Source of the DNA: Chamaelirium japonicum
Taxonomy: Eukaryota; Streptophyta; Magnoliopsida; Liliales; Melanthiaceae
Direction of reading: 5' to 3'
NCBI GenBank assembly: GCA_947650365.1
Contig: OX393550.1
Coordinates: 70,429,978 to 70,493,977, forward strand
Length of the DNA: 64,000 nucleotides
Positions 919 through 52,756 of the stretch are shown here, in pieces; position 1 is the stretch's first letter, and each line of letters opens with the position of its first letter. The notes below the pieces were generated by a model. That model was not told the DNA's origin and searched no databases. It was given only the letters and a program-made list of their open reading frames with translations. The position numbers were made by a program, and so were the translations under genes.

Positions 919-1589
919 CTCCTAGTGCTTCCGACCCCTTGGTTTACCAACTTGTTCGGGTAATTTGTTCAGATTAACATGTTGCTACCATTTTGTGCAT
1001 ATGTTTCATTGCAATTCACTCTGTTCATGGGATTTTGCATGAAGGGGGATATTATTTTGTGCTTTAGTAGGCAATGGACTGTTTGAATTTCTTGTAAAAC
1101 TTGTTGGGATGAGTTTGTATACCATGTTCTTCATCTTTCCTTGGTGAAGTGCTGACAAACCTAGCAAAACTTTGGTTTAGGAGCTTGCTGGACCTTTGCA
1201 AGTTGAGGGTAGAAGGTTTTTTTTTTTTTGGAATGGCAGGCTGAAGGTGTGAGGTCGGTGATTGGGGAAGCTATGGGGATCTATGCAAATTGGAACAAGT
1301 TATGGGGAGCTATGGGGGTTTCATGATTAAATCATAATTTAAAAGTGAATAGCCTTAAGCAATAAGCATACATTACATAAATTAATTGATTGAATGTGAA
1401 TTTGTAGTTATTAAGTTAATCATGTAATTCATGCTCCTAAATTGAATTTCCACAAAAATAAAACAAAAATTTCTGCATAGCAATATATTTTGGTAATTTA
1501 GAAGATAAAGTTATGCACAAGTTGGTTTTTAGTGAGAGTTGATGTTGTTTAGAAGATAAAGTTATGCACAAGTGGTATGATCGGTAAAT

Positions 1590-4500
1590 TTGATAAGTTT
1601 TGGACAATTTGATAAGTTTTGGACAATTTTGAAATTACTTCAGGTGTTGTATAGCCAGATAGACAAGATATCTTCGATCGATAAGAGTTGGATGCGTAAT
1701 TCGAATCGCATGAGCCAAGAGTACAGAGAAGGAGTCAGGAAATTTCTGGATTTTGCATTTGAGCGTCTTGCACCGCTTGATGGAAAAATTGTGTGTCCCT
1801 GTATAGACTGCGGAAGGGTGACTAGGAAGGTTCGAGAGGAATGTGAGGTTGATCTGGTAATGCGTGGCATTGACATTAACTATACCCGTTGGTTCTCGCA
1901 CGGTGAGGAGCTAGATGCAGTCCCCATGGTAGCTCACGGTGAAACTACAAACACAGTGATCGCTGATGATAATATTAATAGAGACGATGATGATGACATG
2001 CAGGGTATGATACATGATTTGCAAGGTGGAATAGGCACGGAAACACCGTCAGGTGATCAGCCCAATATTGAAGCGGACAAGTTCTACAGATTGCTTAAAG
2101 ATGCCGAACAACCTCTATACCCGGGGTGTGAGAAGTTTTCAAAACTCTCTTTCACTGTAAAGCTTCTTCATTTGAAGTGCCTCAATGGTTGGAGTAATAA
2201 GTCATTTAATATGTTGGTAGAGTTGCTGAAAGAGGTTTTTCCTATGGGTGAGACAGTACCGAAATCATTCTACGAGGCGAAGAAGACAATTAAAGATCTC
2301 AGTCTGGGTTATGAGAAAATTGATGCATGCGTGAACGATTGTATGTTGTACCGGAAAGAGTACGAACATACGCGGTCATGCCACATATGCGGAGCAATGA
2401 GATATAAAGAGACAGATGCCGAGTCTAGTACCAGTCGAAGGAAGAAAAATGTATCTGCAAAGGTTCTCCTATACTTCCCGCTTAGGGACAGGCTTCAGAG
2501 GTTGTTATGTCATCGAAGACTACTGAGCACATAAGGTGGCATGCACGAGAACGTACAGATGACGGGATTATGAGACATCCGGCCGACTCTCTGACGTGGA
2601 AAGATTTTGATCATACCTATCCTGAATTCGCATGTGAAGTTCGCAACGTCAGGTTAGGGCTTGCTAGCGATGGCTTCAATCCCTTTGGGAATATGAGTGT
2701 GTCGTACAGCATTTGGCCAGTTGTCCTAGTTCCATACAATTTGCCTCCCTGGATGTGCTTAAAAAAGCCATACACAATACTCTCCTTGCTCATTCCCGGA
2801 CCCAGGTCGCCTGGTAATGATATTGACATTTATTTGCAGCCGTTGATTGAGGAGTTGAACGAGTTATGGGAAGTTGGGGCCGATACGTATGATGCCTCGT
2901 TGCGCCAGAATTTTCGGATGCATGCGGCACTTCTATGGACGATCAACGATTTTCCTGCATATGCTAACTTATCCGGGTAGAGTACTAAAGGAAAATTGGC
3001 ATGCCCTACATGCAATAAGGAGACAGATTCATTACGGTTGAAGAATGGAGGCAAGTTCTGTTATATGGGCCATCGAAGATTTCTTGTTGATGGCCATAAG
3101 TGGAGGCAGAACAAAAGAGCGTTCAATGGCAAGAAGGAACTTGCAAAGGCCCCGGAGCAGCTTTCGGGGGTAGAAGTCTTGTGCGAATTGGATCAGCTTG
3201 ATGCCGTGGAAGAGAACGTATGAAGATTCTACGCGTGAGCATAACTGGAAGAAGAAGAGTATTTTCTTTAAACTACCGTACTGGAGCAGCCTACTCTTGC
3301 GGCATAACTTGGATGTCATGCATATCGAGAAAAATGTGTGTGACAACATTATAGGAACACTGCTGAATCTCGACGGTAAGACGAAGGATAATCTTAAATC
3401 TTGTCTCGATCTTAAGGAGTTGAGCATCCGAAAATCACTTCATCCCCAAGAGATTGGGGATAAGTATGTGTTGCCAGTTGCATGCTACACCATGAGCTCA
3501 CAGCAAAAGGCAGCCTTATGTGCATTCCTACGGTCTGTGAAAACGCCAGACGGTTATTCTTCGAATATCACACGATGCGTGCAAGAGAACGGCCGGAAGT
3601 TGTCTGGATTAAAGAGCCACGATTGTCATGTTCTTATGCAGTGATTGTTATCTCTTGCTATACGTGAAAATTTAACCGAACAGGTGTCCGGTCCGTTAAT
3701 TGAGCTCAGCACTTTTTTCAGACAGTTGTGCTCGAAGGTACTTAGAGTGGACCAACTTGATCAGATGGAGAGGGATATTGCGATCACATTGTGCAAGCTA
3801 GAGATGATATTTCCACCTTTCTTCTTTGATGTCATGGTGCATTTGACCGTTCACTTGGCAAATGAGGCCAAACTCGGCGGCCCAGTTCATTACCGCTGGA
3901 TGTATTTTATCGAGAGGTAATCGTCTCGTCTCATTCGCACAATATATGTATTTGATCGTTCTTGATATATTCATCTAAATATTTTTTTCTCAAATTAGGT
4001 ACTTGCGAACATTGAAATCATATGTTCGTAATAAAAGTCGTCCGGAGGGATCAATTGCTGAAGGATACCTAGCAGAAGAATGTCTAATATTCTGCTCAAG
4101 ATACCTACATGGTATAGACACGCGATTCAATCAACTTGAGCGGAACTATGACGGTGGTCCAATAGACTTCGATGGGGGTCTGTCTATATTTGCTGAAATA
4201 GGTAGACCTGTAGGAGGAGGCAAAACCTGTCGATTGTCTGTAGATGAGATTCAACAGGCACATATGTATGTGTTGCGCCAATGTGATGAAGTGTGGCCAT
4301 TCATTGAGTAAGCATTTTACGATCATTTACTCATTCTTTCAGTCCGTTCATTAAGTATATGTGCTAATTATAATCTAATTCATAACCTGTAAAACAAGAA
4401 GCATAAAGCCATCATTAATAATCGGGGTACTCGAAATGCTCCCCAAATTCATGATCGTGAATTCCCATCGTGGTTCGAGAAACACGTAAGTATTCACATC

Positions 4501-5251
4501 ATTACTGAATTTTATTGACATCCATTACTGAACAATAATTATGTGTTCATATCATGAATGTCATGTGGTTATTATAGGCACAAGAGCTGCACGACAACCA
4601 CGATCCGCTGATGAATGAGGATATCTGGTGCTTATCTTGTAGTCCTTTGCAAGACGCAATATCGTACGATGGTTATATCGTAAACGGTTATAGATTTCGG
4701 ACGAAAGATAGTGAAAAATCATGAAGAACCCAAAATAGTGGGGTTGTCATCAACGGTGAGCAAGAAGAATTAGAAAATATCGACTTCTACGGCGTCCTGA
4801 ATGAGATTCTCAAGATTAAATTCCTTGGCCAAAATCGGATCGTATTATTCAAATGCGATTGTATGATGTTAATAATCACGGGACTGGTTATAATGTCGAT
4901 AAATACGGTTTTATCAGCATCAACACTGGCAAGAGATTGAATACCCAATATGAAGATCCATTCATTCTTGCCTCTCAAGCGCAACAGATATTTTATACAC
5001 CGGATAATACCTCTCCAGGTTGGCAAATTGTAGTCAGGTCACCACCCAGAGATTTTTATGATATGGGAGACAAGGATGTGGGGGTCGTCGATGATGATTT
5101 GGATGCATACCAGAATGATGAGATAATCATTGTCGACACAGTGCACGACGAAAATAAAGATGTCAACAATATAAACTGGACAGCGAATGCAGATCAAATG
5201 ATAGAAGAGGGATGCGATGAGAGTGACAGAGATGAGACAGAAAATGACTAG
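1590..5251 (+). pseudogene. TNPD/TNP2-type CACTA transposase, broken
   Basis: Family order is preserved. There is a transposase-associated Cys domain near 1690-1910 (WM..., CPCIDC), then the TNP2/Transposase_21 core (FNPFGNMS, LIPGPRSPGNDID and IEKNVCDNI motifs), a DUF4218-like part (3645-4310) and a DUF4216-like part (4570-5251). This would be the catalytic DDE-type transposase. It cannot give one protein. A frameshift lies near 2505, TAG at 2978-2980 replaces the Trp of an LSGW motif, a frameshift lies near 3200-3220, TGA occurs at 3642-3644, another stop near 4720, and a one-base deletion near 4860. CACTA B keeps the missing base of that last motif (DWYDV). Introns are visible, for example 3917-3998 (GT...AG). 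The first ATG used, 1590, is uncertain. The DKSWM start motif near 1685 suggests an exon join nearby. Confidence 0.88.
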
Positions 5252-5513: not shown

Positions 5514-7201
5514 ATGGCATCACGGTCATATGTTCGTAGAGGCAGGGGTGGGGTAGCTCGGAGCGCTCCGGTTGCCACCCCAGGGTCCGAGGCCGAGCCG
5601 TCCGGATCTGGTAGTGTTGTTCCTCTCTCCACACCAGCTCCTGATGTGGTCGTAGCCTCCGGAGCTTCGAGCAGTGCTCAGCACTCGGTTGCAGCGTCTA
5701 CGCCCACAGGTAATGTTTAGATCTAAAGTTTTATACATATTGTAAATACTTCTTCAGTACTGATGTATATTTTATTTGCAGGGTCGAGGATCACCAGGCA
5801 CGTAGGCGACCGGGGCGTGACGACGGCCCGGCGCTTGTCGACCTTACGCGAGCCGCTTTCCCTATATTGGAGCGGCAGGACCTTTGTGGGCGAGCACGCT
5901 TCTGACGCCGCCACGTGGGTCGGTATTATAGTACGGGAGGAGAGGAATGCCCCGATTGTGGGGTTAAGGGGGTGGAAGAACATTGATGCATCCTATAAGG
6001 ATAGGATGTATCAGCAGTTTTTGGTATGTTAGTTTCATTAAAGCATTTTAGAATAATATCGTACTTCTTTAATTATAATTTGATTTGATAAAATGACTTG
6101 TTTCTAAATTGATTTTACAGGAGAAATTTAAATGGGAGAACATGGAAACCGACACCCATCGGGAGGACTTGTGGAAGATGATGGGTGAGTGGTACAGGGA
6201 TTACCGTCACGAGCTCTACCAGCTCTACGGTTACTTGGTCGGCCAGCCGGCTGAGGAGATACAGGCTGCGGCTGGGACGAGAGACGCGCCACCGCTACAT
6301 GTTCTACAGTTTTTGGTCGCTCACTGGGCCACTCCTCACTTTCAGGTATAATCATAATTTTGTTGATTCGTACTTGTTTTAATATTATACTAAAAATTTG
6401 TATTGATGTTTCAAAATTTAATCGATTGACATAGATGAGTTCATGTAAAGGCAAGCAGAATAGAAGTGCCTCGACGATACCTGCTCCAGTGAAGGGGAGG
6501 ACCTCCATGCCCCAGCTTGCCCAGCAGCTGGTAAATGATACAAACATTGTTATTATTTAAAGCTCTATACATGTTATATTAACTCATCTATTTATTTTAT
6601 ATGTCCAACAGACACAATCCTTGGGCCACGAGCCTAATAGGATTGACCTTTTTGAGACCTCTAGGAGGCGGCGTACCGATGGGGCATTTCTGGACGACAG
6701 GGTTGCCTCGCAAGTGGTAAGTAATTAAATTACTATTAATATATTCTTATACGACTTCATTGAATATCATTCGTTGTTTTTATATAGGAGAGGATGCGAC
6801 TTCTGGTGACCCCGTCGGGCGAGGCCGGCTCCTCCTCCAGCTCAGTATCTGTCGACTCAGCGATGGATACTGTGCTGAGACCTGCCACGCACGACCGTGT
6901 CCTTTGTACGGGCCTTGGAGTCACGCCCTCCTCCTACTTTGGACGAGAGGGTATGCGCTCGAGGGCACGGGACACCCAGACCGGTGCTATCACTCAGCTG
7001 CAGTCTGCGCTAGACGCGGAGCGAGAGCAGAGGCAGGCCCTCGAGCAGAGGGTTGAGGCGGAGCGAGAGCAGAGGCAGGCCCTCGAGCAGAGGGTTGAGG
7101 CGGAGAAGAAGGCCCTCGATGAGGAAAGAGAAGCTCGCAGGGAACTGGAGCGTAAATTTTATGACTTCATAAGCAGGTCTAGCAGTGGCTCATCCTCATG
7201 A
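5514..7201 (+). CDS. TNPA-like CACTA accessory protein (Transposase_24-like), open in six exons
   Basis: Exons 5514-5709, 5782-6023, 6121-6345, 6435-6530, 6612-6716 and 6788-7201 all have GT...AG borders and consistent phase. Together they give 426 codons (425 residues plus TGA) without a stop. The N-terminus is Arg/Gly- and Ser/Ala-rich. The middle contains a W-R-...-FKWE region and WYRDYRHELYQLYGYLVG, resembling the plant Ptta/En-Spm Transposase_24 family. The C-terminus (about 7015-7160) is a Glu/Arg/Gln coiled coil with a direct duplication of a 15-residue block. In En/Spm systems TNPA binds subterminal repeats and cooperates with TNPD. That function is inferred. The TNPD upstream is dead, so a transposase would have to be supplied in trans. 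A degraded homologue lies in CACTA B (41501-43116). Confidence 0.8.
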
Positions 7202-7205
7202 TTAG

Positions 7206-10200
7206 GTACTTACTAATCTTCATAATATTAGTAAAAAATATGAATCTTACTAATTTGAGTTTAGATCATATTATCACACTTATGATTTTCCAACACTTAG
7301 ACTCTAAATCGGTGAATCGGATCGTAAATTGGTCAAATATCCAATTAGAACCCGCTCGCAAGTCCGAAATATGGAATAATTCCAAGTTCGAATTATCGGA
7401 TGCCGATCCGATCGAATCCAAACCTATTTCATATCCGAAACATGCTAACTTATGATTTTCCAACACTTAGACACTAAATCGGTGAATCAGAGCGTCAATT
7501 GGTCAAATATCCAATTAGAACTCGCTCGCAAGTCCGAAATATGAAATAATTCCAACTTTGAATTATCGGATGCCGATCCGATGACGATCCGATCGAATCC
7601 AAACCTATTTCAAATCCGAAACACGCTAACTTATGATTTTCCAACACTTAAACTCTAAATCGGTGAATCGGATCATAAATTGGTCAAATATCCAATTAGA
7701 ACCCGCTCGCAAGTCCGAAATACGGAATAATTCCAAGTTCGAATTATCGGATGCCGATCCGATGACGATCCGATCGAATCCAAACCTATTTCAAGTCCGA
7801 AACACGCTAACTTATGATTTTCCAACACTTAGACTCTAAATCGGTGAATCGGAGCGTAAATTGGTCAAATATCCAATTAGAACCCGCTCGCAAGTCCGAA
7901 ATACGGAATAATTCCAACTTCGAATTATCGGATGCCCATCCGATGATGATCCGATCGAATCCAAACCTATTTCAAATCCGAAACACGCTAACTTATGATT
8001 TTCCAACACTTAGACTCTAAATCGGTGAATCGGATCGTAAATTGCTCAAATATCCAATTAGAACCCGCTCGCAAGTCCGAAATACAGAATAATTCCAAGT
8101 TCGAATTATCGGATGCCGATCCGATGACGATCCGATCGAATCCAAACCTATTTCAAATCCGAAAAACGCTAACTTATGATTTTCCAACACTTAGACTCTA
8201 AATCGGTGAATCGGATCGTAAATTGGTCAAATATCCAATTAGAACCTGCTCGCAAGTCCGAAATACGGAATAATTCCAAGTTCGAATTATCGGATGCCGA
8301 TCCGATGACGATCCGATCGAATCCAAACCTATTTCATATCCGAAACACGCTAACTTATGATTTTCCAACACTTAGACTCTAAATCGGTGAATCGGAGCGT
8401 AAATTGGTCAAATATCCAATTAGAACTCGCTCACAAGTCCGAAATACGGAATAATTCTAACTTTGAATTATCGGATGCCGATCCGATGACGATCCGATCG
8501 AATCCAAACCTATTTCAAATCCGAAACACGCTAACTTATGATTTTCCAACACTTAGACTCTAAATCGGTGAATCGGATCGTAAATTGGTAAAATATCCAA
8601 TTAAAACCCGCTCGCAAGTCCGAAATACGAAATAATTCCAACTTCGAATTATCGGATGCCCATCCGATGACGATCCGATCGAATCCAAACCTATTTCAAA
8701 TCCGAAACACGCTAACTTATGATTTTCCAACACTTAGACTCTAAATCGGTGAATCGGATCGTAAATTGGTCAAATATCCAATTAGAACCCACTCGCAAGT
8801 CCGAAATACAGAATAATTTCAAGTTTGAATTATCGAATGCCGATCCGATGACGATCCGATCGAATCCAAACCTATTTCAAATCCGAAACACGCTAACTTA
8901 TGATTTTCCAACACTTAGACTCTAAATCGGTGAATCGGATCGTAAATTGGTCAAATATCCAATTAGAACCCGCTCGCAAGTCCGAAATACGGAATAATTC
9001 CAAGTTCGAATTATCGGATGCCGATCCGATGACGATCGATCGAATCCAAACCTATTTCATATCCGAAACACGCTAACTTATGATTTTCCAACACTTAGAC
9101 TCTAAATCGGTGAATCGGAGCATAAATTGGTCAAATATCCAATTAGAACTCACTGGCAAGTCCGAAATACGGAATAGTTCCAACTTCGAATTATCGGATG
9201 CCGATCCGATGACGATCCGATCGAATCCAAACCTATTTCAAATCCGAAACACGCTAACTTATGATTTTCCAACACTTAGACTCTAAATCGGTGAATCGGA
9301 TCGTAAATTGGTCAAATATCCAATTAGAACCCGCTCGCAAGTCCGAAATACGGAATAATTCCAAGTTCTAATTATCGGATGCCGATCCGATGACGATCCG
9401 ATCGAATCCAAACCTATTTCAAATCCGAAACATGCTAACTTATGATTTTCCAACACTTAGACTCTAAATCGGTGAATCGGAGTGTAAATTGGTCAAATAT
9501 CCAATTAGAACCCGCTCGCAAGTCCGAAATACGGAATAATTCCAACTTCGAATTATCGGATGCCGATCCGATGACAATCCAATCGAATCCAAACCTATTT
9601 CAAATCCAAAACACTCTAACTTATGATTTTCCAACACTTAGACTCTAAATCGGTGAATCGGATCGTAAATTGGTCAAATATCCAATTAGAACCCGCTCGC
9701 AAGTCCGAAATATGGAATAATTCCAAGTTCGAATTATCGGATGCCGATCCGATGATGATCCGATCGAATCCAAACCTATTTCAAATCCGAAACACGCTAA
9801 CTTATGATTTTCCAGCACTTAGACTCTAAATCGGTGAATCGGATCGTAAATTGCTTAAATATCCAATTAGAACCCGCTCGCAAGTCCGAAATACGGAATA
9901 ATTCCAAGTTCGAATTATCGGATGCTGATTCGGTGATGATTGGATCGAATCCAAACCTATTTCATATCCGAAACACGCTAACTTATTATTTTCCAACACT
10001 TAGACTCTAAATCGGTGAACCGGAGCGTAAATTGGTCAAATATCCAATTAGAACCCGCTCGCAAGTCCGAAATACGGAATAATTCCAAGTTCTAATTATC
10101 GGATGCCGATCCGTTGACGATCGGATCGAATCTAAACCTATTTCATATCCGAAACACGCTAACTTATGATTTTCCAACACTTAGACTCTAAATCGGTGAA

Positions 10201-13200
10201 TCAGAGCGTAAATTGGTCAAATATCCAATTAGAACTCGCACGCAAGTCCGAAAAACGGAATAATTCCAAGTTCGAATTATCGGATGCCGATCCGATGATG
10301 ATCCGATCGAACCCAAACCTATTTCAAATCCGAAACACGCTAATTTATGATTTTCCAACACTTAGACTCTAAATCGGTGAATCGGATCGTAAATTGGTCA
10401 AATATCCAATTAGAACCCGCTCACAAGTCCGAAATACGAAATAATTCCAAGTTCGAATTATCGGATGCCGATCCGATTGAATCCAAACCTATTTCATATC
10501 CGAAACACGCAAACTTATGATTTTCCAACACTTAGACTCTAAATCGGTGAATCGGATCGTAAATTGGTCAAATATCCAATTAGAACTCGCTCGCAAGTCC
10601 GAAATACGGAATAATTCCAAGTTCGAATTATCGGATGCCGATCCGATGACGATCCGATCGAATCCAAACCTATTTCAAATCCGAAACACGCTAACTTATT
10701 ATTTTCCAGCACTTAGACTCTAAATCGGTGAATCGGATGGTAAATTGGTCAAATATCCAATTAGAACCCGCTCGCAAGTCCGAAATACGAAATAATTCCA
10801 AGTTTGAATTATCGGATGCCGATCCGATGACGATCCGATCGAATCCAAACCTATTTCAAATCCGAAACACGCTAACGTATGATTTTCCAACACTTAGACC
10901 CTAAATCGGTGAATCGGAGCGTAAATTGGTCAAATATCCAATTAGAACCCGCTCGCAAGTCCGAAATACGGAATAATTCACAGTTCGAATTATCGGATGC
11001 CGATCCAATGACGATCCGATCGAATACAAACCTATTTCAAATCCGAAACACGCTAACTTATGATTTTCCAACACTTAGACTCTAAATCGGTGAATCGGAT
11101 CGTAAATTGCTCAAATATCCAATTAGAACCAGCTCGCAAGTCCGAAATACGGAATAATTCCAAGTTCTACTTATCGGATGCCGATCCGATGATGATCCGA
11201 TCGAATCCAAACCTATTTCAAATCCGAAACACGCTAACTTATTATTTTCCAGCACTTAGACTCTAAATCGATGAATCGGATCGTAAATTGCTCAAATATC
11301 CAATTAGAACCCGCTCGCAAGTCCGAAATACGGAATAATTCCAAGTTCGAATTATCGGATGCCGATCCGATGACGATCCGATCGAATCAAAACCTATTTC
11401 ATATCCGAAACACGCTAACTTATGATTTTCCAACACTTAGACTCTAAATCGGTGAATTGGATCGTAAATTGGTCAAATATCCAATTAGAACCCGCTCGCA
11501 AGTCCGAAATATGGAATAATTCAAACTTCGAATTATCAGATGCTGATCTGATGATGATCTGATCGAAACCAAACCTATTTCAAATCCGAAACACGCTAAC
11601 TTATGATTTTCCAACACTTAGACTCTAAATCGGTGAATCGGAGCGTAAATTGGTCAAATATCCATTTAGAACTCGCTCGCAAGTCCGAAATATGGAATAA
11701 TTCCAAGTTCGAATTATCGGATGCCAATCCGATGATGATCCGATCGAATCCAAACCTATTTCATATCCGAAATACGCTAACTTATGATTTTCCAACACTT
11801 AGACTCTAAATCGGTGAATCGGAGCGTAAATTGGTCAAATATCCAATTAGAACTCGCTCGCAAGTCCGAAATACGGAATAATTCCAACTGTGAATTATCG
11901 GATGCCGATCGGATGACGATCGGATCGAATCCAAACCTATTTCATATCCGAAACACGCTAACTTATGATTTTCCAACACTTAGACTCTAAATCGGTGAAT
12001 CGGAGCGTAAATTGGTCAAATATCCAATTAGAACCCGCTCGCAAGTCCAAAATACTGAATAATTCCAAGCAAAAATTATCGGATGCCGATCCGATGACGA
12101 TCCGATCGAATCCAAACCTATTTCAAATCCGAAACATGCTAACTTATTATTTTCCAACACTTTGACTCTAAATCGGTGAATCGGATCGTAAATTGCTCAA
12201 ATATCCAATTAGAACCCGCTCGCAAGTCCGAAATATAGAATAATTCCAAGTTCGAATTATCGGATGCCGATCCGATGACGATCGGATCGAATCCAAACCT
12301 ATTTCATATCTAAAACACTCTAACTTATGATTTTCCAACACTTAGACTCTAAATCGGTGAATCGGAGCGTAAATTGGTCAAATATCCAATTAGAACCCGC
12401 TCGCAAGTCCGAAATACGGAATAATTCCAGCTTCGAATTATCGGATGCCGATCCGATGACTATTGGATCGAATCCAAACCTATTTCATATCCGAAACACG
12501 CTAACTTATGATTTTCCAACACTTAGACTCTAAATCGGTGAATCGGATCGTAAATTGGTCAAATATCTAATTAGAACTCGCTCGCAAGTCCAAAATACGG
12601 AATAATTCCAACTTCGAATTATCGGATGCCGATCTGATGATGATCCGATCGAATCCAAACCTATTTCAAATCCGAAACACGCTAACTTATGATTTTCCAA
12701 CACTTAGACTCTAAATCGGTGAATCGGAGCGTAAATTGGTCAAATATCCAATTAGAACTCGCTCGCAAGTCCGAAATACGGAATAATTCCAACTTTGAAT
12801 TATCGGATGCCGATCCGATGACAATCCGATCGAATCCAAACCTATTTCATATCTGAAACACGCTAACTTATGATTTTCCAACACTTAGACTCTAAATCGG
12901 TGAATCGGATCGTAAATTGGTCAAATATCCAATTAGAACTCGCTCGCAAGTCCGAAATACGGAATAATTCTAACTTCGAATTATCGGATGCCGATTCGAT
13001 GACGATCGGATCGAATCCAAACCTATTTCATATCCGAAACACGCTAACTTATGATTTTCCAGCACTTAGACTCTAAATCGATGAATCGGAGCGTAAATTG
13101 CTCAAATATCCAATTAGAACTCGCTCGCAAGTCTGAAATACGGAATAATTCCAAGTTTGAATTATCGGATGCCGATCCGATGACGATCGGATCGAATCCA

Positions 13201-13471
13201 AACCTATTTCATATCCGAAACATGCTAACTTATGATTTTCCAACACTTAGACTCTAAATCGGTGAATCGGAGCGTAAATTGGTCAAATATCCAATTAGAA
13301 CTCACTCGCAAGTCCGAAATACGGAATAATTCCAACTTCGAATTATCGGATGCCGATCCGATCGAATCCAAACCTATTTCGAAATCGAAACACGCTAACT
13401 TATGATTTTTTAACGCTTAGACTCAGTTATAGATATAAACCATTTTTTTAACAAATACATGTTAATTGCAG
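7206..13471 (+). other. Predicted 3'UTR intron of the TNPA-like gene containing the satellite array
   Basis: A donor (TTAG|GTACTT) starts four bases after the TNPA stop codon. An acceptor (TTAATTGCAG|G) ends at 13471, after a T-rich tract. Both sites are conserved in the inverted CACTA B, with donor TCAG|GTATTT just after its stop near 41498 and acceptor TTAATTACAG near 37360. The 34-unit array would then be spliced out of the 3'UTR. The stop codon lies only a few bases before the junction, so nonsense-mediated decay would not be expected. Splicing is predicted from sequence only. Confidence 0.6.
7282..13428 (+). repeat. 181-bp tandem satellite inside CACTA A, 34 units
   Basis: Units begin with ATGATTTTCCAACACTTAGA. 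Starts at 7282, 7452, 7633, 7814, 7995 and so on to 13232 give 34 units plus a partial one at 13402. Most are 181 bp. A few (at 7282, 10347 and 13232) are 170 bp because they lack an 11-bp block next to GATCCGATCGAATCC. Units differ mainly at a GGATCG/GGAGCG site and a CATATCC/CAAATCC site, whose pattern hints at mixed subtypes. A 68-codon frame recurs in nearly every unit. Since 181 is not a multiple of three, neighbouring frames overlap out of phase, and I do not consider it coding. Related arrays lie at 37740-41395 and 49594-52005. Confidence 0.95.
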
Positions 13472-13800
13472 GAGCAGGGCGGCGTCAGGGGATCGATCAG
13501 AGCATCAGCGTTGGTGGCGGGCGGGGGTGGTTGAGATAGGGCATCTCTCAGTTTTGGATTGTGTAAATATTATTTTGTAATATGTGGTTATTTTTTGTTC
13601 TTGTCTATAATTGTCGGGTATTGTGGTAATATTTGATAATTTGCTGTAATTTTTTTATCAATTTAGGTAATATTTTAAAATTTGCGGTAATATTTTATAA
13701 ATTGTGGTAATATTTGATAAATTGTGGTAATATATTGTGATATTGTTGTAAATCACAGGAATTAAATAATATTATTTAGGTAAATTTATTAAAAAAAAAC
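13472..13800 (+). other. Predicted last non-coding exon of TNPA and AT-rich GTGGTAATATTT repeats
   Basis: A GC-richer block (13472-13560) follows the predicted acceptor and is conserved in CACTA B (37260-37358, reversed) and C (52040-52130). It is followed by degenerate copies of a ~24-bp unit like GTGGTAATATTTGATAAATT (13565-13765). The copies in B and C show it is part of the element. It probably serves as 3'UTR and polyadenylation region. Confidence 0.6.
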
Positions 13801-13804
13801 ATAC

Positions 13805-14307
13805 TTATTACCGACGGAAATTAATTATTCCGTCGGTAATTAAGTTTTTATTTTTTTTTAAATTATAAATAATTTGCCGACGGAATATAATATCCGTCGG
13901 TAATATATATATTATTGCCGACTGGAAATATATATCCGTCGGTAATATATATATTATTACCGACTGGAAATATATACCCGTCGGTAATATATATAGTATT
14001 ACCGACAGTATATACCATAACCGTCGGTAAATTGCTTATATATTACCGACGGACTATTATGTATCGTCAGCAATAATATATTATATTAATTTTTAATTGT
14101 TTAAATATTACCGACGGCTTTAATATTACCGTCGGTATTAATTATTATTACCGACGGTAATATTTGGTCCGTCGTATTGTTTTCCCGACACCTTTTTTTC
14201 CGACAGCCAGCGACGAAAATATCTTCCGTCGCTATAAAATATTACCGACGGAAAGTTAATATTACCGACGGATATTGTCCGTCGGTAATAACTGTTTTTT
14301 TTTAGTG
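13805..14307 (+). repeat. 3' subterminal ACCGACGG repeats and right terminus of CACTA A
   Basis: More than ten ACCGACGG / CCGTCGGT motifs occur, mostly as inverted pairs separated by AT-rich loops, ending in the T-run and TAGTG terminus at 14303-14307. An intact CACTA end would read GTAGTG on this strand. Here the G before TAGTG is replaced by T, a terminal change that might reduce mobility. Confidence 0.88.
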
Positions 14308-16450: not shown

Positions 16451-17400
16451 GTCGGTCTAGAGAATCCCCGACTAGAGCCTTCCAGAACATCCACTTGGCA
16501 TGGACAAGACCGGTGCACCCTCCCTCATGGCCCCTTATCACTGCCTGGCAGGCTAGATGACAAAGCTCATCAAAGGCCCATGTGGGCTAACACCGAAAGG
16601 TATAAAAGGTGCAGGAATATGCGGCGATGTGTTAGTCTCTGGCGGTCTGTAAAAGGTAGGACCCCTGACTCCAAAGTACATATTGGAAATTCTGAAACCG
16701 AGACTGTATTTTCCCACTGCTAAAACTTTCCTCTTTCGAACCTCCACTGACTTGAGCGTTGGAGGGTCTGTGCTCCTCACGGAGCCATCCATTCACATGA
16801 TCTTTGTCTTGCAAGTTGAGCTACCGGTCCAGTGAAGATTTTTCCCCCAACAGTATCTAACATGATATCAGAACTAGATCCTATCGTCTTTTTGCTTCGG
16901 ATACTTCCTACTGACTATGCCTTGCGATGTGTGCTCCGAGTGAGATGATGTATTGACAGATAGTCCCACATCGATGGGGGAGGCATCTATCACCCACTTA
17001 ATATACCCCCTATGAACCTCCCATTATGACCCGGATTTTGGGGTGAAGGTTTTTTCCAAAATGACCCTCAATTAACCTGTATTGATTAAACCGAACCCAA
17101 GTTTCAATCCTTTACTTTTTTGACCTTTTTTTTTTGGATGATTTTACCCCCGTGAATTTCATCCCCTGTGAAGAGGTGTCGCTCGAGGGTTTCGATTTTT
17201 TCTCTCAGAGTTCTCCATCCATAACAAAGAGAAGAGAGGGAAGGAGGGAAGGGGGAGGGAGGAAGAGATAAAGAGAAGAGACAGATAAAGGGAGGGAGAG
17301 ATAGAGAGAGGGAGGGCACATTTCTTCAAGGCGAGAAATCTATCTACAGCGGCGGAGGAGCAGGAGCATCGCCACCGGACTACTCTCTCTCACCTGAGGA
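16451..17400. mobile_element. LTR-like fragments of the 52993-54546 LTR family, inverted (copy 1)
   Basis: 16480-16857 is the reverse complement of the start of the LTR at 52993 (ending CCCCCAACA). 17040-17330 is the reverse complement of its other end (about 54230-54510; AGGTTTTTTCCAAAATGACC). TATCTAACA followed by TGATATCAGAAC at 16854-16875 resembles an LTR end next to a tRNA-iMet type primer site. The two blocks are in swapped order relative to the intact LTR, so this is a rearranged remnant or a related element. The second block may act as leader sequence for the MULE transposase downstream. 17400-17960 has no ORF and looks like intron or leader. Confidence 0.55.
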
Positions 17401-20934: not shown

Positions 20935-22070
20935 TGGTTCAAATAGTGGTATGGTGAAAAACTTCTATTTTGTGCATTGTAATTGTGGTGTGGAAAACTT
21001 TTACTTTTTGTGTTGTAATTATGATGTGAAAAACTTCTACTTTTTGTGTTGTAATTATGATCGATGTGAAAAACTTTTACTTCTTCTATTGTAATTATAG
21101 TATGGAAAACTTCTACTTTTTATGGTGTGAAAAACTTATACTTTTTGTGTTGAAATAGTGGTGTGGAAAATATTATTGTCAATCATAAATTGGTGGGTTG
21201 TAATTATGATGTGAAAAACTCTAATTTTTGTGCTATAATTGTGATGTGGAAAACTTCTACAGCTTCTATTGTAATTATGTTGTGAAAAACTTTTACTTTT
21301 TGTGGTGTAAAGAACTTATACTTTTTACGTTAAAATAGTGGTGTGAAAAATATTTGTGTTAATCATAAATTGATGGGTTGTAATTGTGATGCGGAAAACT
21401 TCTATTTTTTGTGTTTAATTGTGATGTAAAAAACTTCTACTTCTTCTATTATAACTATGATGTGGAAAACTTCTACTCTTTGTGTTGTGAAAAACTTATA
21501 CTTATTGCGTTAAAATAGTGGTATGAAAAATATTGGTATCAATCATAAATTGGTGGGTTGTAATTATGAGATGAAAAACTTCTAATTATTATTTTGTAAT
21601 TATAATATGGAAAACTTCTACTTTTTCTATTATAATTATGGTGTGAAAAACTTCTACTTTTTGTAGTGTAAAAAACTTATACTTTTTGTATTGAAATAGT
21701 GGTGTGAAAAATATTGGTGTCAATCATAAATTGGTGGATTGTAATTGTGATGTGGAAAACTTATACTTTTTGCGTTGTAATTGTGATGTAGAAAACTTCT
21801 ACTTCTTTTATTGTAATTATGATGTGAAAAATTTTTACTTTTTGTGGTGTGAAAAACTTATACTTATTACGTTGAAATAGTGGCCTGAAAAATATTGGTG
21901 TTAATCATAAATTGGTGGGTTGTAATTGTGATATGGAAAACTTTTACTTTTTGCGTTGTAATTATGATGTGGAAAACTTTTACTTCTTGTATTGTAATTA
22001 TGGTGTGGAAAAGTACTACTTTTTATGGTGTGAAAAACTTATATTTATTGCATTGAAATAGTGGTCTGGA
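20935..22070. repeat. Minisatellite with ~180-bp higher-order period downstream of MULE (copy 1)
   Basis: Short units of ~30-35 bp (TTGTAATTGTGATGTGGAAAA then CTTCTACTTTTTGTG-like halves) are organised into a longer repeat. The landmark AATCATAAATTGGTGGGTTG occurs at 21181, 21361, 21541, 21722 and 21903, a spacing of 180-181 bp. The same array follows the second MULE copy (63065-64000). No coding potential is apparent. Confidence 0.9.
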
Positions 22071-37040: not shown

Positions 37041-37399
37041 ACTTGAATTTTTTTTAAAAAAATTACTAAAATCTGGTTATTTAATTCCTGTGATTTACAA
37101 CAATACCACAATATATTCAAATATTACTATAATTGACTAAATCAAATATTACCATAATTTATCAAATATTACCATAAATTATCAAATATTACCACAATAC
37201 CAGACAATCATAGACAAGACAAAAAAATTACTACATATTTATTACAAAATTATTTTTATATAATCCAAAACTGAGGGAAGCTGCGTGCCCTAGCTCAACT
37301 ACCCCACGCAGCCCGGCACGAACGCTGGTGCTCTCATCCCCTGACGTTGCACATCCTGTAATTAACATGTATTTGTTAAAAAAATAGTTTACATTTATA

Positions 37400-37735
37400 T
37401 ATATAGCATGGTGCAATTGGGGCTTAGTGTAATGAATTTCCATGGTGACTTAATCATATGGTTATGAATTAGTTGTACTGGTGTTGAATTGTGCTTCAGC
37501 ATTTCATCGACTGTGATATTTGCTGAGGTGGCATCGCCGTTATACCATAGATTTTCTCCTCTTTCAAGCTCCCTCCCCAAATTCACGCTCCCCCCTATCG
37601 ACTCGCCCAACAAATCACGTGAAGAGGGGGACGATCATCTCAACAGTCGGTAAGATCACCGCCTCCCCCCAAGAACCGCTAGATCCGATTTTTTACCAAA
37701 TATTTCAGGCGAGATTTTACCCTCCAATTGACTAA
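37400..37735. other. Extra ~330-bp segment in CACTA B between predicted acceptor and array
   Basis: Elements A and C run straight from the array into the acceptor region, but B has an additional GC-richer segment here. No protein family was recognised, and the ORFs on both strands are short. It could be a captured host fragment or an insertion. TSDs were not identified. Confidence 0.5.
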
Positions 37736-37739
37736 TTTA

Positions 37740-40700
37740 GAGTCTAAGCATTCGAAATTCATAAGTTAGTGTGTTTTAGATTTTGAACTTGGTTTGGATT
37801 CGATCGGATCGTTATCGGATCGCAACCGATAATTCGGACTTGGATGTTTTTTTATATGTCAAACTTACGAGCAATTTATAAATATATATTTAAGATTTTA
37901 CCATCCGATTGACTAATTTAGAGTTTAAGCGTTGGAAAATTATAAGTTAGCGTATTTTGGATTTTGAACTGGTTTAGATTCGATCGAATCATTATTGAAT
38001 CGCATCCAATAATTCATACTTGGATGGTTTTTTGTATTTTGGACTTGCGAATAAGTTTTAAGTAGATATTTTAAGAATATACCCTCCAATTGACTAATTT
38101 AGAGTCTAAGCGTTGGAAAATCATAAGTTAGTGTGTTTTAGATTTTAAAGTTGGTTTGGATTCGATTGGATCATCAATGGATTGCATTCGATAATTCGAA
38201 CTTTGATATTTTATCGTATTTCGAACTTACAAGCAAGTCTTAAGTAGATATTTTAAGAATTTACCCTCCGATTGACTAATATATAGTCTAAGTATTGAAA
38301 AATCATAAGTTAGAGTGTTTTGGATTTTGAACTTGGTTTGGATTCGATCGGATCATCATCGGATCACATCCGATAATTCGTACTTGGATGTTTTTTCGTA
38401 TTTCAGACTTGTGAGCAAGTTCTAATTAGATATTTTAAGAATTTACCCTCTGATTGACCAATTTAGAGTCTAAGTGTTCAAAATCATAAGTTAGCGTGTT
38501 TCGGATTTGAAATTGGTTTGGATTCGATCAAATCATCATCGGATCGTATCTGATAATTTGTACTTAGATGTTTTTTTATATTTTGGACTTCCGAGCAAGT
38601 TTTTAGTAGATATTTTAAAAATTTATCCTCCGATTGACTAATTTAGAGTCTAAGTGTTGAAAAATCATAAGTTAGCGTGTTTCGGATTTTGAACTTGGTT
38701 TGGATTCGATCAGATCATCATTAAATCATATTCGATAATTTGTACTTGGATATTATTTTGTATTTTGAACTTGCGACCAAGTTCTAATTAGATATTTTAA
38801 GAATTTACTCTTCGATTGACCAATTTAGAGTCTAAGCGTTCAAAAATCATAAGTTAGCGTGTTTCGGATTTGAAATTAGTTTGGATTCGATTGGATCATT
38901 ATCGGATCGCATCCGATAATTTGTACTTGGATATTTTTTCATATTTTGGACTTGCGAGCAAGTTATAAGTAGATATTTTAATAATTTACCCTCCAATTGA
39001 ATAATTTAGAGTCTAAGCATTAAAAAATCATAAGTTAGCGTGTTTCGGATTTTGAACTTGGTTTGGATTCGATCGGATCATCATCGGATCACATCTGATA
39101 ATTCATACTTGGATATTTTTTCGTATTTCGGACTTGCGAGCAAGTTCTAATTCGATTTTTTAAGAATTTACCCTCCGATTGACCAATTTAGAGTTTAAGC
39201 GTTCAAAAATTATAAGTTAGTGTGTTTTGGATTTGAAATTTGTTTGGATTCGATCGGATCGTCATTAGATCGTATCCGATAATTTGTACTTGGATGTTTT
39301 TTGTATTTTAGACTTATAAGTAATTTTTAAGTAGATCTTTTAAGAATTTACCCTCCGACTGACTAATTTAGAGTCTAAGCGTTGAAAAATCATATGTTAG
39401 CGTGTTTCGGATTTTGAACTTGGTTTGGATTCGATCGGATCGTCATCGGATCGCATCTGATAATTTGTACTTGGATGTTTTTTCGTATTTTGGACTTGTG
39501 AGCAAGTTTTAAGTAGATATTTTAAGAATTTACCCTCCGATTGACTAATTTAAAATCTAAGCATTGAAAAATCATAAGTTAGCGTATTTCGGATTTTGAA
39601 CTTGGTTTGGATTTGATCGGATTATCATCGGATCGCATTCGATAATTCATACTTGGTAGTTTTTTCATATTTCGGACTTGCGAGCAAGTTTTAAGTAGAT
39701 ATTTTAAGAATTTACCCTCCGATTTACTAATTTAGAATCTAAGCATTGAAAAATCATAGGTTAGCGTGTTTTGGATTTTGAAGTTGGTTTGAATTCGATC
39801 AGATCGTTATCGGATCGTATCTGATAATTCGTTCTTGGATATTTTTTCATATTTCGGACTTGTGAGCAAGTTCTAATTAGATATTTTAAGAATTTACCCT
39901 CCGATTGACCAATTTAGAGTTTAAGCATTCAAAAATCATAAGTTAGCGTATTTCGGATTTGAAATTGGTTTGGATTCGATCGGATCATCATCGAAACACA
40001 TCCGATAATTCGTACTTGGATGTTTTTTCGTATTTCGAGCTTGCGAGCAAGTTTTAAGTAGATATTTTAAAATTTTACCCTCCAATTGACTAATTTAGAG
40101 TATAAGCGTTAAAAAATGATAAGTTAGCATGTTTCGGATTTTGAACTTGGTTTGGGTTCGATTAGATTGTCATCGGATCGCATCCAATAATTCGTACTTG
40201 AAAGTTTTTTTCTATTTTGGACTTGTGAGCAAGTTTTAAGTAGATATTTTAAGAATTTACCCTCCGATTGACTAATTTAGAATCTAAGCGTTGGAAAATC
40301 ATAAGTTAGCGTGTTTCGGATTTTGAAGTGGTTTAGATTCGATCGGATCGTTATCGGATCGCAACCGATAATTCATACTTGGAAGTTTTTTCGTATTTCG
40401 AACTTGCGAGCAAGTTTTAAATAGATATTTTAAGAATTTATCCTCTAATTGACTAATTTAGAATCTAAGCATTGGAAAATCATAAGTTAGCGTGTTTCAG
40501 ATTTTGAAGTTGGTTTGGATTCGATTGGATCATCATCGGATCGCATCCGATAATTCGTACTTGGATATTTTTTTCGTATTTGGAAATTGCGAGCAAGTTC
40601 TAATTAGATATTTTAAAAATTTACCCTTCGATTGACCAATTTAGTGTCTAAGCATTCAAAAATCATAAGTTAGCATGTTTTGGATTTAAAATTGGTTTGG

Positions 40701-41395
40701 ACTCGATCGGATCGTCATCGGATCGCATCCGATAATTCGTACTTTGATATTTTTTCGTATTTCGGACTTGCGAGCAAATTTTAAGTAGATATTTTAAGAA
40801 TTTACTCTCTGATTGACTAATTTAGAATCTAAGCGTTGAAAAATTATAAGTTAGTATGTTTCGGATTTTGAACTTGGTTTGGATTCAATCGAATCTTCAT
40901 CGGATCGCATCCGATAATATGTAGTTGGATATTTTTTTGTATTTTGGACTTGCGAGCAAGTTCTAATTAGATATTTAAAGAATTTACCCTCCGATTGACC
41001 AATTTAGAGTCTAAGCGTTCCAAAATCAAAAGTTAGCGTGTTTCGGATTTGAATTTGGTTTGGATTCAATCGGATCATATCCGATAATTTGTACTTGGAT
41101 GTTTTTTCATTTTTTGGACTTGCGAGCAAGTTTTAAGTAGATATTTTAAGAATTTACCATCTGATTAACTAATTTAGAGTCTAAGTGTTAAAAAATCATA
41201 AGTTAGTGTGTTTCGGATTTTGAAATTGGTTTGGATTCAATCGGATCATCATCAGATCGCATCCGATAATTCATACATGGATGGTTTTTCGTATTTCGGA
41301 CTTACGAGAAAGTTTTAAGTAGATATTTTAAGAATTTACCCTCCGATTGTCTAATTTAAAGTCTAAGCGTTGGAAATTCAGAAGTTAGCGTGTTA
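37740..41395 (-). repeat. 181-bp satellite array of CACTA B, ~20 units
   Basis: Reverse-complement relatives of the 7282-13428 repeat. The landmark ATAAGTTAG occurs at 37761, 37942, 38123, 38305, 38486 and 38667, so the period is 181-182. Units are more diverged from each other than in element A and do not preserve the 68-codon frame. The array sits at the same place, between the TNPA stop (about 41501) and the predicted last-exon acceptor (about 37360). Confidence 0.93.
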
Positions 41396-41500
41396 GCGTG
41401 ATAATCGTGCTAAACTCAAATAACATGGCAATCTTATTTGTATTAATTTAGATAAGATGCATACTTTATATTAATATTATAATGATTAGTAAATACCTGA

Positions 41501-44542: not shown

Positions 44543-45500
44543 GCTGAGCCAAGCTTTGGTCGGCTTGAGCTTGTTCACGAGCCTAAACTTCATACTAGGC
44601 TATGCTCAATTAGTGATTGAACAGTCCCTTATCGTGCTTGTTCATGAACCTAAACTTCATACTAGGATATATGTTAGGCTTATTCAAGCCATTTATGAGC
44701 CTATTCACGAGCCCTTTATGAGCCTATCAAGTTTGCTCATGAGCCCTAAACAAGCATGTTCGCGAGCCCAAACGAGCCGAGCTTTGGTCTACTTAAACTT
44801 GGCTCATTTATTAAACGAGCCTAAACCGAGCTTTGGTCTGCTTGAGCTTGTTCACGAGCCTAAACTTCAGACTAGGCTATGCTCAATTAGTGATTAAACA
44901 GTCCCTTATCGAGTTTGTTCACGATTCTAAACTTCATACTAGGCTATATGTTAGGCTTATTCAAGCCATTTATGAGCCTATTCATGAGCCCTTTATGAGC
45001 CTATCGAGCTTGTTCACGAGCTTTGCTCACAAGCCCTAAACAAGCATGTTTGCAAGCCCAAAAGAGTCAAGATTTGGTCTACTTGAGCATGGCTCATTTA
45101 TTAAACGAGCCTAAACCAATCTTTGGTCGGCTTGAGCTTTTTCACGAGCCTAAACTTCAGACTAGGCTATGCTCAATTAGTGATTGAACAGTCCCTTATT
45201 GAACTTGTTCACGAGCCAAAACTTCATACTAGGCTATATGTTAGGCTTATTCAAGCCATTTATGAGCCTATTCAAAAGTCCTTTATGAGCCTATCGAGCT
45301 TGTTCATGAGCTTTGCTCACAAGCCCTAAATAAGCATGTTTGCGAGCCCAAACGAGCCGAGATTTCGTTTGCTTGAGCTTGGCTCGTTTATTAAACTAGC
45401 CTAAACTCTAGGCTTGGGATTGGCTTGACTAGTAACCGAACGAACTCGAACGAGCTTTTATCGAGCCAAGCCGCGAGCCGCTCATGAACAGCTTGGTTCG
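44543..45500. repeat. GAGCC/GAGCTTG-rich ~290-bp tandem repeat, three copies
   Basis: Units starting near GCTTTGGTCGGCTTGAGC recur at about 44543, 44833 and 45123 (period 290). They contain repeated GAGCCTAAAC and CATTTATGAGCCTATTC words. The right edge (GCTTGGTTCGTTTGCAGCC) resembles ends of widespread plant hAT-like repeats. No TSD was assigned. Short ORFs in each unit are composition artefacts. Confidence 0.75.
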
Positions 45501-49593: not shown

Positions 49594-52005
49594 ACTTGCA
49601 AGTCTGAAATACGAAAAAAATCTAAGTACGAATTGTCCAATGCCGATCCGATCGAATCCAAACCAATTTCAAATCCGAAACATGCTAACTTTTGATTTTT
49701 CAACGCTTAGACTCTAAATTTGTCAATCGGAGGGTAAATTATTAAAATATCTAATTAGAACATGCTCGTAAGTCCGAAATACGAAAAAAATCTAAGTACG
49801 AATAGTCGGATGCCAATCCGATCGAATTCAAACCAATTTCAAATCCGAAACACGCTAACTTTTGATTTTTCAACGCTTAGACTCTAAATTGGTCAATCGG
49901 AGCATAAATTATTAAAATATCTAATTAGAACTTGCTCACAAGTCCGAAATACGAAAAAAAATCCGAGTATGAATTGTCGGATGCTGATCCGATCGAATCC
50001 AAACCAATTTCAAATCCGAAACACGCTAACTTATGATTTTTCAACGCTTAGACTCTAAATTTATCAATCGGAGGGTAAATTATTAAAATATCTAATAAGA
50101 ACTTGCTCGCAAGTCCAAAATACAAAAAAAATCCAAGTACGAATTGTTGGATGCTGATCCGATCGAATCCAAACCAATTTCAAATCCGAAACATGCTAAC
50201 TTTTAATTTTTCAATGCTTAGACTCTAAATTGGTCAATCGGGGTGTAAATTGTTAAAATATATAATTAGAACTTGCTTGCAAGTATGAAATATGAAAAAA
50301 AATCCTAGTACGAATTGTCGGATGCCGATCCGATAATGATACGATCGAATCCAAACCAATTTTAAATCCGAGACACGCTAACTTTTGATTTTTCAACGCT
50401 TAGACTCTAAATTGGTCAATCGGAGCGTAAATTGTTAAAATATCTAATTAGAACTTACTTGTAAGTCTGAAATACAAAAAAAATCCAAGTACGAATTGTC
50501 AGATGTCGATCCGATGATGATTCGATCGAATCCAAACCAATTTCAAATCCGAAACATGCTAAACTTATGATTTTTCAACGCTTAAACTCTAAATTTGTCA
50601 ATCGAAGGGTAAATTAATAAAATATCTAAATAGAACTTGCTCGTAAGTCCGAAATACGAAAAAAAATTCAAGTATGAATTGTCAGATGCCGATCCGATGA
50701 CGATTCGATCGAATCCAAACCAATTTCAAATCCGAAACACGCTAACTTTTGATTTTTCAATGCTTAGATTCTAAATTGGTCAATCAGAGCGTAAATTGTT
50801 AAAATATCTAATTAGAACCTGCTCGCAAGTCCGAAATACGAAAAAAATCCAAGTACGAATTGTCGGATGACGATCCGATCGAATCTAAACCAATTTTAAA
50901 TCCAAAACACGCTAACTTTTTATTTTTCAACGCTTAGACTCTAAATTTGTCAATCGGATGATAAATTATTAAAATATCTAATTAGAACTTGCTCGCAAGT
51001 CCAAAATACGAAAATAATTCAAGTATGAATTGTCGGATGCCGATCCGATGATGATCCGATTGAATCCAAACCAATTTCAAATCTGAAACACGCTAACTTT
51101 TGATTTTTCAACACTTAGACTCTAAATTAGTCAATCAGAGCGTAAATTATTAAAATATCCAATTAGAATTTGCTCGCAAGTCCGAAATACTAAAAAAAAT
51201 CCAAGTACAAATTATCGGATGCCGATCTGATGACGATCCGATCGAATCCAAACCAATTTCAAATCCGAAACACGCTAACTTATGATTTTTCAACGCTTAG
51301 ACTCTAAATTTATCAATCGGAGGGTAAATTATTAAATTATCTAATTAAAACTTGCTCGCAAGTCCGAAATACAAAAAAATTCTAAGTACGAATTGTCGAA
51401 TGTCGATCCGATCGAATCCAAACCAATTTCAACTCTGAAACATGCTAACTTTTGATTTTTCAATGCTTAGACTCTAAATTGTTCAATCGGAGCGTAAATT
51501 GTTAAAATATCTAATTAGAACTTGCTCGCAAGTCCAAAATATAAAAAAATTCAAGTACGAATTGTCGGATACCGATCCAATAACGATCCGATCGAATCTA
51601 AACCAATTTTAAATCCGAAACACGCTAACTTTTGATTTTTCAATGCTTAGATTTTAAATTTATCAATCGGAAGGTAAATTGTTAAAATATCTAATTAGAA
51701 CTTGCTCACAAGTCCGAAAAACGAAAAAAATCCCAGTACGAATTGTCCGATGCCGATCCGATCGAATCCAAACCAATTTCAAATCCGAAACACGCTAACT
51801 TTTGATTTTTCAACGCTTATACTCTAAATTGGTCAATCGGAGATGAAATTGTTAAAATATCGAATTAGAACTTGCTCGTAAGTCCAAAATACGAAAAAAA
51901 ATCCAAGTACGAATTGTCGGATGCCGATCCGATCAAATCCAAACCAATTTCAAATCCTAAACAAGCTAGCTTTTGATTTTTCAACGCTTAGACTCTAAAT
52001 TATAG
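49594..52005 (+). repeat. ~170-182-bp satellite array of CACTA C, ~14 units
   Basis: Relatives of the element A repeat with the landmark TGATTTTTCAACGCTTAGAC. Units are ~170 bp or, where GATGATGATCCG-type blocks are present, ~181 bp. The unit sequence differs consistently from A (TTTTTCAACGC, AAAAAAATCCAAGTACG), so this is a distinct subfamily. Confidence 0.92.
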
Positions 52006-52756
52006 ATATAAACTATTTTTTTAACAAATACATGTTAATTACATGATGTGCAGTGTCAAGGGATGAGAGCACTAGTGTTGGTGCCGAGCGGCGTGGGGTG
52101 GTTGAGATAGGGCGTCAGTTTTGGATTGTGTAAAACTAATTTTGTAATAAATATATGGTAATTTCTTGGTCTCGTCTATGATTGTCTGGTAGTGTGGTAA
52201 TTTGTGGTTATATTTGAATATATTGTGGCAATATTTGAATATATTGTGGTATTATTGTAAATTACAAGAATTTAATAACCAAATATTTTTTGTAATTTTC
52301 TTTAAAAAATTCAAGTTTTATTACCAACGGATATTATAGATTCCGTTGGTAATAATCTATTATTTTTTTAAAATAAATCATATTTTATCACGGTATATAG
52401 TTCTCTGTCGGTAATATAGTTATTATTGCCGACGATAATAATGTAGCCGTTGGTAATATACCTATTATTGCCGACGGATATCCTGTGATCCGTCGGTAAT
52501 AATGACGTATATTACCGACGAAAATCAGTTTTACTGTTGGTGATAATTAAGCATATTACCGACGGACAAAATATTTCTGTCGGCATTAATGATTAATACC
52601 AACGGAAATATTATGTCCGTCGCAAATTTTTTCCGACGCCTTTTTTCCCAACAGCCTAGCGACAAAAATACGTTCCATCAGGATAAATTATTACCAACGG
52701 AAATTCAATTGTACCGACGGATATATTCCGTCGGTAGAAACCTTTTTTTTGTAGTG
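49594..52756 (+). mobile_element. CACTA transposon C, 5'-truncated
   Basis: The right end TTTTTTTTGTAGTG finishes at 52756. To its left are ACCGACGG-type subterminal repeats (52315-52745), the GTGGTAATATT tract, the predicted last TNPA exon (about 52044 on) and a satellite array. The left edge joins gag sequence directly to array sequence, so the 5' terminus and all genes are missing. CCT lies at both edges (49591-49593 and 52757-52759), which could be the original TSD, but a 3-bp match next to a truncated end is weak. Confidence 0.8.

Follow-up and report, generated by a model that had tools for sequence, protein, structure and literature searches.

The last gene of a CACTA transposon family in Chamaelirium japonicum probably ends in an intron of its 3' untranslated region (3'UTR), a reading to which we give a probability of roughly 70%, and within this putative intron a repeat of about 181 bp appears to have been amplified into kilobase arrays. 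We analyzed a 64,000-nt stretch of contig OX393550.1 from the 1.52-Gb genome (hereafter, the window), together with relatives of its elements genome-wide. At the level of sequence, the reading draws on the presence of both candidate splice sites, which two diverged subfamilies have kept, on constraint on the donor in spreading lineages and on the variable length of the array; these observations partly support placing the array region in a 3'UTR intron and point to a real, family-wide feature.

Copies A, B and C of the element lie in the window (Table 1). Of five scanned pieces of the copy A transposase gene, four returned Pfam matches, to Transpos_assoc (E = 7.4e-21), Transposase_21 (PF02992; E = 1.2e-72 at 2486-2977), DUF4218 (E = 3.6e-20) and DUF4216 (E = 1.2e-13), with PF13963 and others close to the Transposase_21 match. 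Because Transposase_21 (tnp2) occurs here with its associated domains, we assigned copy A to the CACTA/En-Spm group. Subterminal CCGACGG/CCGTCGG repeats of copy A were recognized by eye at about 29-640 and 13805-14290, and the element ends 3' in CACTAAAAAAAAAC, with CACTACAAAAAAAA at the corresponding end of copies B and C. A 5' terminal repeat is absent from copy B, which is 5'-truncated, and from the 3' fragment that is copy C; the 5' end of copy A is unreadable. At the expected site of the missing 5' part of copy B lies a 290-bp tandem repeat in three copies (44549-45406). Downstream of tnp2 in copy A, on the same strand, lies a second multi-exon gene with a coiled-coil-like C-terminus and a TGA stop at 7199-7201. 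We use the name TNPA for it tentatively, by position: the first-pass annotation had applied this label, and the gene does come second after tnp2, but in the two of its pieces that were searched, no Pfam family passed its cut-off.

Table 1. Features of copies A, B and C in the window; a slash marks a proposed splice boundary
Feature	Position	Strand	Basis or remark
Copy A, tnp2/TNPD-like transposase gene pieces	1581..5251	+	several open frames, Pfam matches
Copy A, second gene (TNPA by position)	5517..7201	+	five GT-AG coding introns predicted by eye
Copy A, putative 3'UTR intron, 5' end	7206..7281	+	donor AG/GTACTTACT, 21% GC
Copy A, 181-bp satellite array	7282..13424	+	TRF row 7395-13424, within putative intron
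Copy A, putative intron, 3' end	13425..13471	+	T-run, TTAAC branch-like motif, TTGCAG acceptor
Copy A, putative untranslated last exon	13472..13760 (end 13760 arbitrary)	+	GC change, indels between A and B
Copy A, 3' end: CCGACGG-type subterminal repeats plus terminal repeat CACTAAAAAAAAAC	13805..14307	+	sequence
Copy B, 4141-bp putative intron of the 3'UTR	37356..41496	-	donor, array, spacer and acceptor in sequence
Copy C, 3' fragment with a related array, the last exon and the CACTA terminus	49598..52756	+	acceptor mutated

Other repeats occur in the window besides these copies. A second array type (20954-22065 and 63090-64000) is built of 36-bp units (GTGAAAAACTTCTACTTTTTGT) in a 181-bp higher period, and each of its arrays has a matching short repeat upstream (17259-17316 and 59524-59581); the arrays and short repeats are probably two copies of another element. 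In addition, a 427/76-bp tandem repeat at 31460-32539 falls partly within a 353-aa open frame on the minus strand (31703-32764).

The putative intron of copy A opens with a GT at 7206-7207 (ATTAG/GTACTTACT), 4 nt past the stop codon, and closes with an AG at 13470-13471 (TTTTTTTAACAAATACATGTTAATTGCAG/GAG), a span of 6266 bp, and its GT-AG ends, branch-like motif and T-run are as expected of a U2-type spliceosomal intron. The family consensus at the donor is ATGATCAG/GTACTTACT, which carries C and T at +4 and +5 where the general consensus has A and G and is therefore a mediocre donor. The first-pass annotation had proposed a donor just past the stop codon and an acceptor ahead of the last exon, the two bracketing the array, with the same sites in inverted copy B at about 41498 and 37360. 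Both sites were found in copy A (7206 and 13471), with the TRF array inside them, and the layout is repeated on the minus strand in copy B, where the GT (41496-41495) and the AG (37357-37356) fall a few bases from the positions proposed. The corresponding acceptor of copy C reads TTACAT, ending at 52044. We compared base composition as well, excluding from a table of seven introns the two placed in tnp2 (29% GC, one of them misplaced): the flanks of the copy A intron have 21% GC and the five coding introns of the second gene 19-23%. At the 3' end, GC content jumps from 16% to 67% at a change-point (13468) within 4 nt of the acceptor; the 5' change-point falls at 7153 and does not mark the donor.

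Downstream of the acceptor, the initial 70 nt of the putative last exon are 67% GC, after which the sequence becomes AT-rich with TGTAAA/TTGTAA words. A coding last exon was considered and rejected, as indels between copies A and B are not multiples of 3 and the stop codon precedes this exon. An alternative that the transcript-end signals address is that no intron is used at all, with transcripts ending before or within the array, which would then be ordinary 3' spacer whose splice-like sites are kept by descent. We regard this as rather unlikely. In favor of early termination, the sense strand of the A arrays has about one AATAAT per monomer, but poly(A)-like words of the TGTAAA/TTGTAA type number eight in the 329 nt scanned from 13472, and the 5' flank of the copy A intron (76 nt) has none of the scanned words. 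Loss of AATAAA was likewise considered as a sign of read-through and rejected: the motif is missing in sense from 17 of 19 A arrays and in antisense from all 19, so its absence from the sense strand is not evidence of selection. Spliced retrocopies would have counted against the no-intron alternative, and none carrying the joined A exon-exon junction was found among the best 40 scored of 2,974 genome candidates, nor did the B junction pattern match anywhere in the genome at up to 3 mismatches; this absence says little, and such retrocopies may not exist.

Under the intron reading, the position of the stop codon has a further consequence. An exon junction less than 50 nt past the stop codon should escape nonsense-mediated decay in plant mRNA, and because the stop lies less than 50 nt ahead of the intron, the junction 7205/13472 should not trigger it.

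Within copy A, the array has a TRF period of 181 bp with 33.4 copies and 93% matches, and array sequence extends back to about 7282. The array of copy B (37712-41394) has a period of 182 bp, 20.4 copies and 84% matches, and that of copy C (49598-52001) has 13.7 copies. When searched genome-wide at up to 3 mismatches, a 35-nt core of the monomer gave 52,591 matches (26,558 forward and 26,033 reverse; control, 0), and the 100 places listed, on C1 and C2, are scattered as single matches or in clusters that extend to about 11 kb. The arrays are head-to-tail, of a single monomer type and in many copies, and so qualify as satellite DNA. Their observed/expected CpG ratios are 2.03, 1.84 and 2.07, with about 0.9 in the element genes and 0 in the copy A intron flanks, a strong enrichment that is odd if, as expected, the repeat is methylated. 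An array-free spacer of about 310-350 bp separates array and acceptor in copy B (about 37400-37711) and in one relative (L084), whereas copies A and C have no such spacer. That it is common would fit the finding that, of 20 B-type acceptor regions, 14 show none of the monomer within the few hundred bases covered.

We next turn to relatives of these copies across the genome. With a query spanning the donor (7100-7400), the best 40 of 1,434 candidates were scored and 20 were fetched as 10-kb regions, one clipped by a contig end. All 20 of these A-type relatives, which were thus found through the donor region itself, carry the GT donor; the acceptor was located in 18, with AG in 17. Over the donor region, A-type copies are 96-98% like the window copy and are young, a circumstance under which splice-like sites could persist by descent, as the no-intron alternative holds. 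In the 18 relatives and the window copy, the intron spans 3217-7190 bp and the number of monomer motifs ranges from 17 to 39 between fixed array edges: the first motif begins 84-85 nt past the donor, and the last lies 231-232 nt ahead of the acceptor in 18 of 19 rows including the window (205 nt in L025). The two relatives in which the acceptor was not located differ in layout. L035 continues into other sequence after three monomers, and L020 has other sequence past its array, with an acceptor about 14.5 kb from the donor (in L075), consistent with a nested insertion.

Queries of coding-exon sequence only, which exclude the donor, listed 40 A-type and 40 B-type matches, from each of which 20 copies not yet sampled were fetched. 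GT was intact in 19 of 20 of either type (the losses being L103 and L129). In two B-type copies (L118 and L133), a few additional bases separate the stop from the donor, and GTACTTACT is kept. The first-pass annotation had held that loss of either splice site in most family copies would refute the intron; overall, 94 of the 99 copies retain the GT, and the AG is retained in 42 of the 46 acceptor rows. Of the B-type regions of about 550 bp, 37 of 38 continue past the flank into monomer sequence, as do 19 of the 20 that are 200 bp long; the A-type pieces, at 120 bp, are too short to reach it. B-type arrays begin at a varying monomer phase, roughly 70-170 nt past the donor as judged by eye. Array length and starting phase therefore vary between retained intron ends.

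As a stricter check than retention, we compared changes on different parts of a tree. The donor alignment comprised 99 regions (41 A-type and 58 B-type), from which a tree was built with FastTree and changes were assigned by parsimony to terminal branches, which represent individual copies that are presumably mostly dead, or to internal branches, which represent lineages that spread. One further copy with an intact GT, L072, did not pass the placement filter and is not in the alignment, and a motif-based subtyping of B copies proved noisy and was dropped, the tree being used in its place. The donor (-3 to +6) showed 26 terminal substitutions and 1 internal, against 142:60 at the other sites (exon -34 to -9, 65:19; -8 to -4, 5:1; +7 to +27, 22:9; +28 to +60, 50:31), a significant difference by Fisher's test from all other sites (p = 0.0022) and from exon alone (p = 0.042). 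Over five branch-collapse thresholds, p ranged from 0.0012 to 0.0134 against all sites and from 0.024 to 0.117 against nearby exon. When only C/G columns were used, which allows for methylation-driven mutation, p was 0.0055-0.039 over settings, and at the middle settings the donor showed 21:0 versus 56:17 in the exon (p = 0.011). Of the 86 nine-column windows of the alignment in which 10 or more terminal changes occurred, the eight that rank lowest in internal share all overlap the donor, the minimum within the donor region lying at -1 to +9. Dead copies thus lose the donor and spreading lineages keep it, which fits a donor that is used, and we read this as a good case for selection on the donor in spreading lineages. 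It also weighs against a transcript without an intron, as retention by descent predicts like ratios for the donor and its neighbors.

The acceptor was placed by BLAST in 48 rows, of which two were removed as duplicates, L009 of the window and L012 of L031. The remaining 46 comprise 22 A-type rows including the window and 24 others, with two rows each from L077 and L078; AG is intact in 21 of the 22 and 21 of the 24, in rows that came from queries containing the acceptor. The acceptor CAG showed 6 terminal and 0 internal changes. The wider zone from -35 to +1 (29:7) was not different from exon +2 to +75 (102:30; p = 0.82), and compared with that exon plus -55 to -36 (117:52) the test gave p = 0.22. 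Against -55 to -36 alone (15:22) it gave p = 0.0007, a segment that makes a poor neutral yardstick with inflated internal changes because it holds the array/spacer edge, which differs between A and B. A/T columns at -35 to -1 (6:0) gave p = 0.018 against -55 to -36 (9:13) and p = 0.034 against donor-side +28 to +60 (28:25), the latter from a different tree. Constraint on the acceptor in spreading lineages is suggestive on these comparisons, and the case is weaker than that for the donor. In L077 (1333-1791) and L078 (910-1368), the 3' intron end and last exon are tandemly duplicated as a 259-bp unit with both acceptors intact; further pairs at 259-bp spacing occur among the matches listed, and the variant seems to have spread.

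An alternative is that the donor splices to acceptor-like sites within the array, so that partial satellite would be carried in a long 3'UTR and the distal acceptor used only sometimes. CTAAC followed after 15-30 nt by YAG occurs 30 times in the array of copy A (33.4 copies), 19 in that of B (20.4) and 11 in that of C (13.7); with an acceptor-like motif in most monomers, the array might be removed only partly. All five monomer consensuses compared (A, B, C, L077 and L084) contain GCTAACTTATGATTTTYCAACRCTTAGACTC, that of C with one A/T change, and the acceptor zone lacks clear excess constraint. However, other stretches of the monomer are equally conserved, so that this motif does not stand out, TTAG/A is by consensus a weaker acceptor than TTGCAG/G, and the distal AG is retained in most rows, as given above. 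We consider this alternative unlikely.

A different explanation is that the conserved blocks are DNA-level elements, such as transposase-binding sites or transposition signals, that happen to resemble splice sites. The 35-nt block ahead of 13472 is almost identical across copies A, B and C and was duplicated along with the last exon in L077 and L078, as would suit such an element. Nevertheless, it would take a coincidence for two separate blocks to fit the donor and acceptor consensus, each correctly oriented and in the proper order, and for the lowest internal share of the donor region to fall at -1 to +9. The subterminal repeats of the family, moreover, are of the CCGACGG type and located elsewhere. 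We consider this explanation very unlikely.

Returning to the 3'UTR intron, we propose that in working copies the spliceosome joins 7205 to 13472, from a donor just past the stop to an acceptor ahead of a last exon that is short, untranslated and rich in no coding signal but carries poly(A)-type words, and the protein-coding mRNA would therefore be free of the array. Even if splicing failed or transcription stopped early within the array, the reading frame would remain complete; with the frame spared and no decay expected, array growth would cost least in this particular intron. It is conceivable, and we offer it tentatively as somewhat less than an even bet, that the 3'UTR intron serves as a cargo bay: host splicing would strip the satellite from every transposon mRNA, and arrays could grow, shrink and scatter with transposition, seeding satellite genome-wide at little cost to the transposon. 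If true, satellite DNA would spread and grow within a working transposon by way of the one intron whose failure spares the protein, satellite dispersal would be linked with splicing, and transcript-based annotation would miss such arrays.

The closest known arrangement is that of the Chenopodium quinoa CACTA element 'Jozin', which has Transposase_21 and carries 32.5 monomers of 171 bp (5,550 bp) 3' of its coding sequence (PMC8978399). Like copy A, it is a CACTA element with an array after the coding sequence and near the 3' end, and several element copies carry the array. In 'Jozin', however, the array begins 689 bp past the annotated coding sequence, and the section on its tandem repeats describes no intron, donor or acceptor (PMC8978399). 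Because Chenopodium CACTA elements carry it, the order of gene, array and element end is already known, and the statement of the first-pass annotation that satellites in CACTA elements are usually described as plain internal repeats agrees with this one close precedent (PMC8978399).

More distant parallels share single aspects, as far as the consulted parts of the sources describe them. In pea, Ogre 3'UTR tandem repeats and the satellite PisTR-A (PMC9659126) likewise show tandem repeats that expand within the 3' untranslated portion of a transposon and occur as satellite as well, but Ogre is an LTR retrotransposon and its repeats lie in the untranslated region and not in a spliced intron. Arabidopsis Atenspm and ENSAT1 (PMC9659126) pair an En/Spm-like element with a satellite, as copy A does, whereas the ENSAT1 entry assigns the satellite to the 5'UTR with no intron. 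The Drosophila Y genes kl-3 and kl-5 have satellite-containing gigantic introns (PMC6508621), so that satellite arrays similarly sit in introns that need splicing, but these are megabase introns of host genes and not of a mobile element. Rice and Arabidopsis heterochromatic introns, inside which transcripts are polyadenylated prematurely without IBM2 (PMC7145194), are also repeat-bearing and from plants, but belong to host genes, in contrast to a satellite-bearing intron past the stop codon of a transposon gene. The words 'UTR', 'untranslated' and 'satellite' are absent from the main text of a study of CACTA transposase introns (PMC4158355), the consulted portions of soybean and lettuce CACTA papers hold nothing on a 3'UTR intron or satellite, and our literature search, which reached few subscription papers, found no report of a satellite within a transposon 3'UTR intron. 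Collectively, CACTA arrays near the 3' end are known, and what is new here is best read as the apparent location of such a satellite array inside a 3'UTR intron of the transposon.
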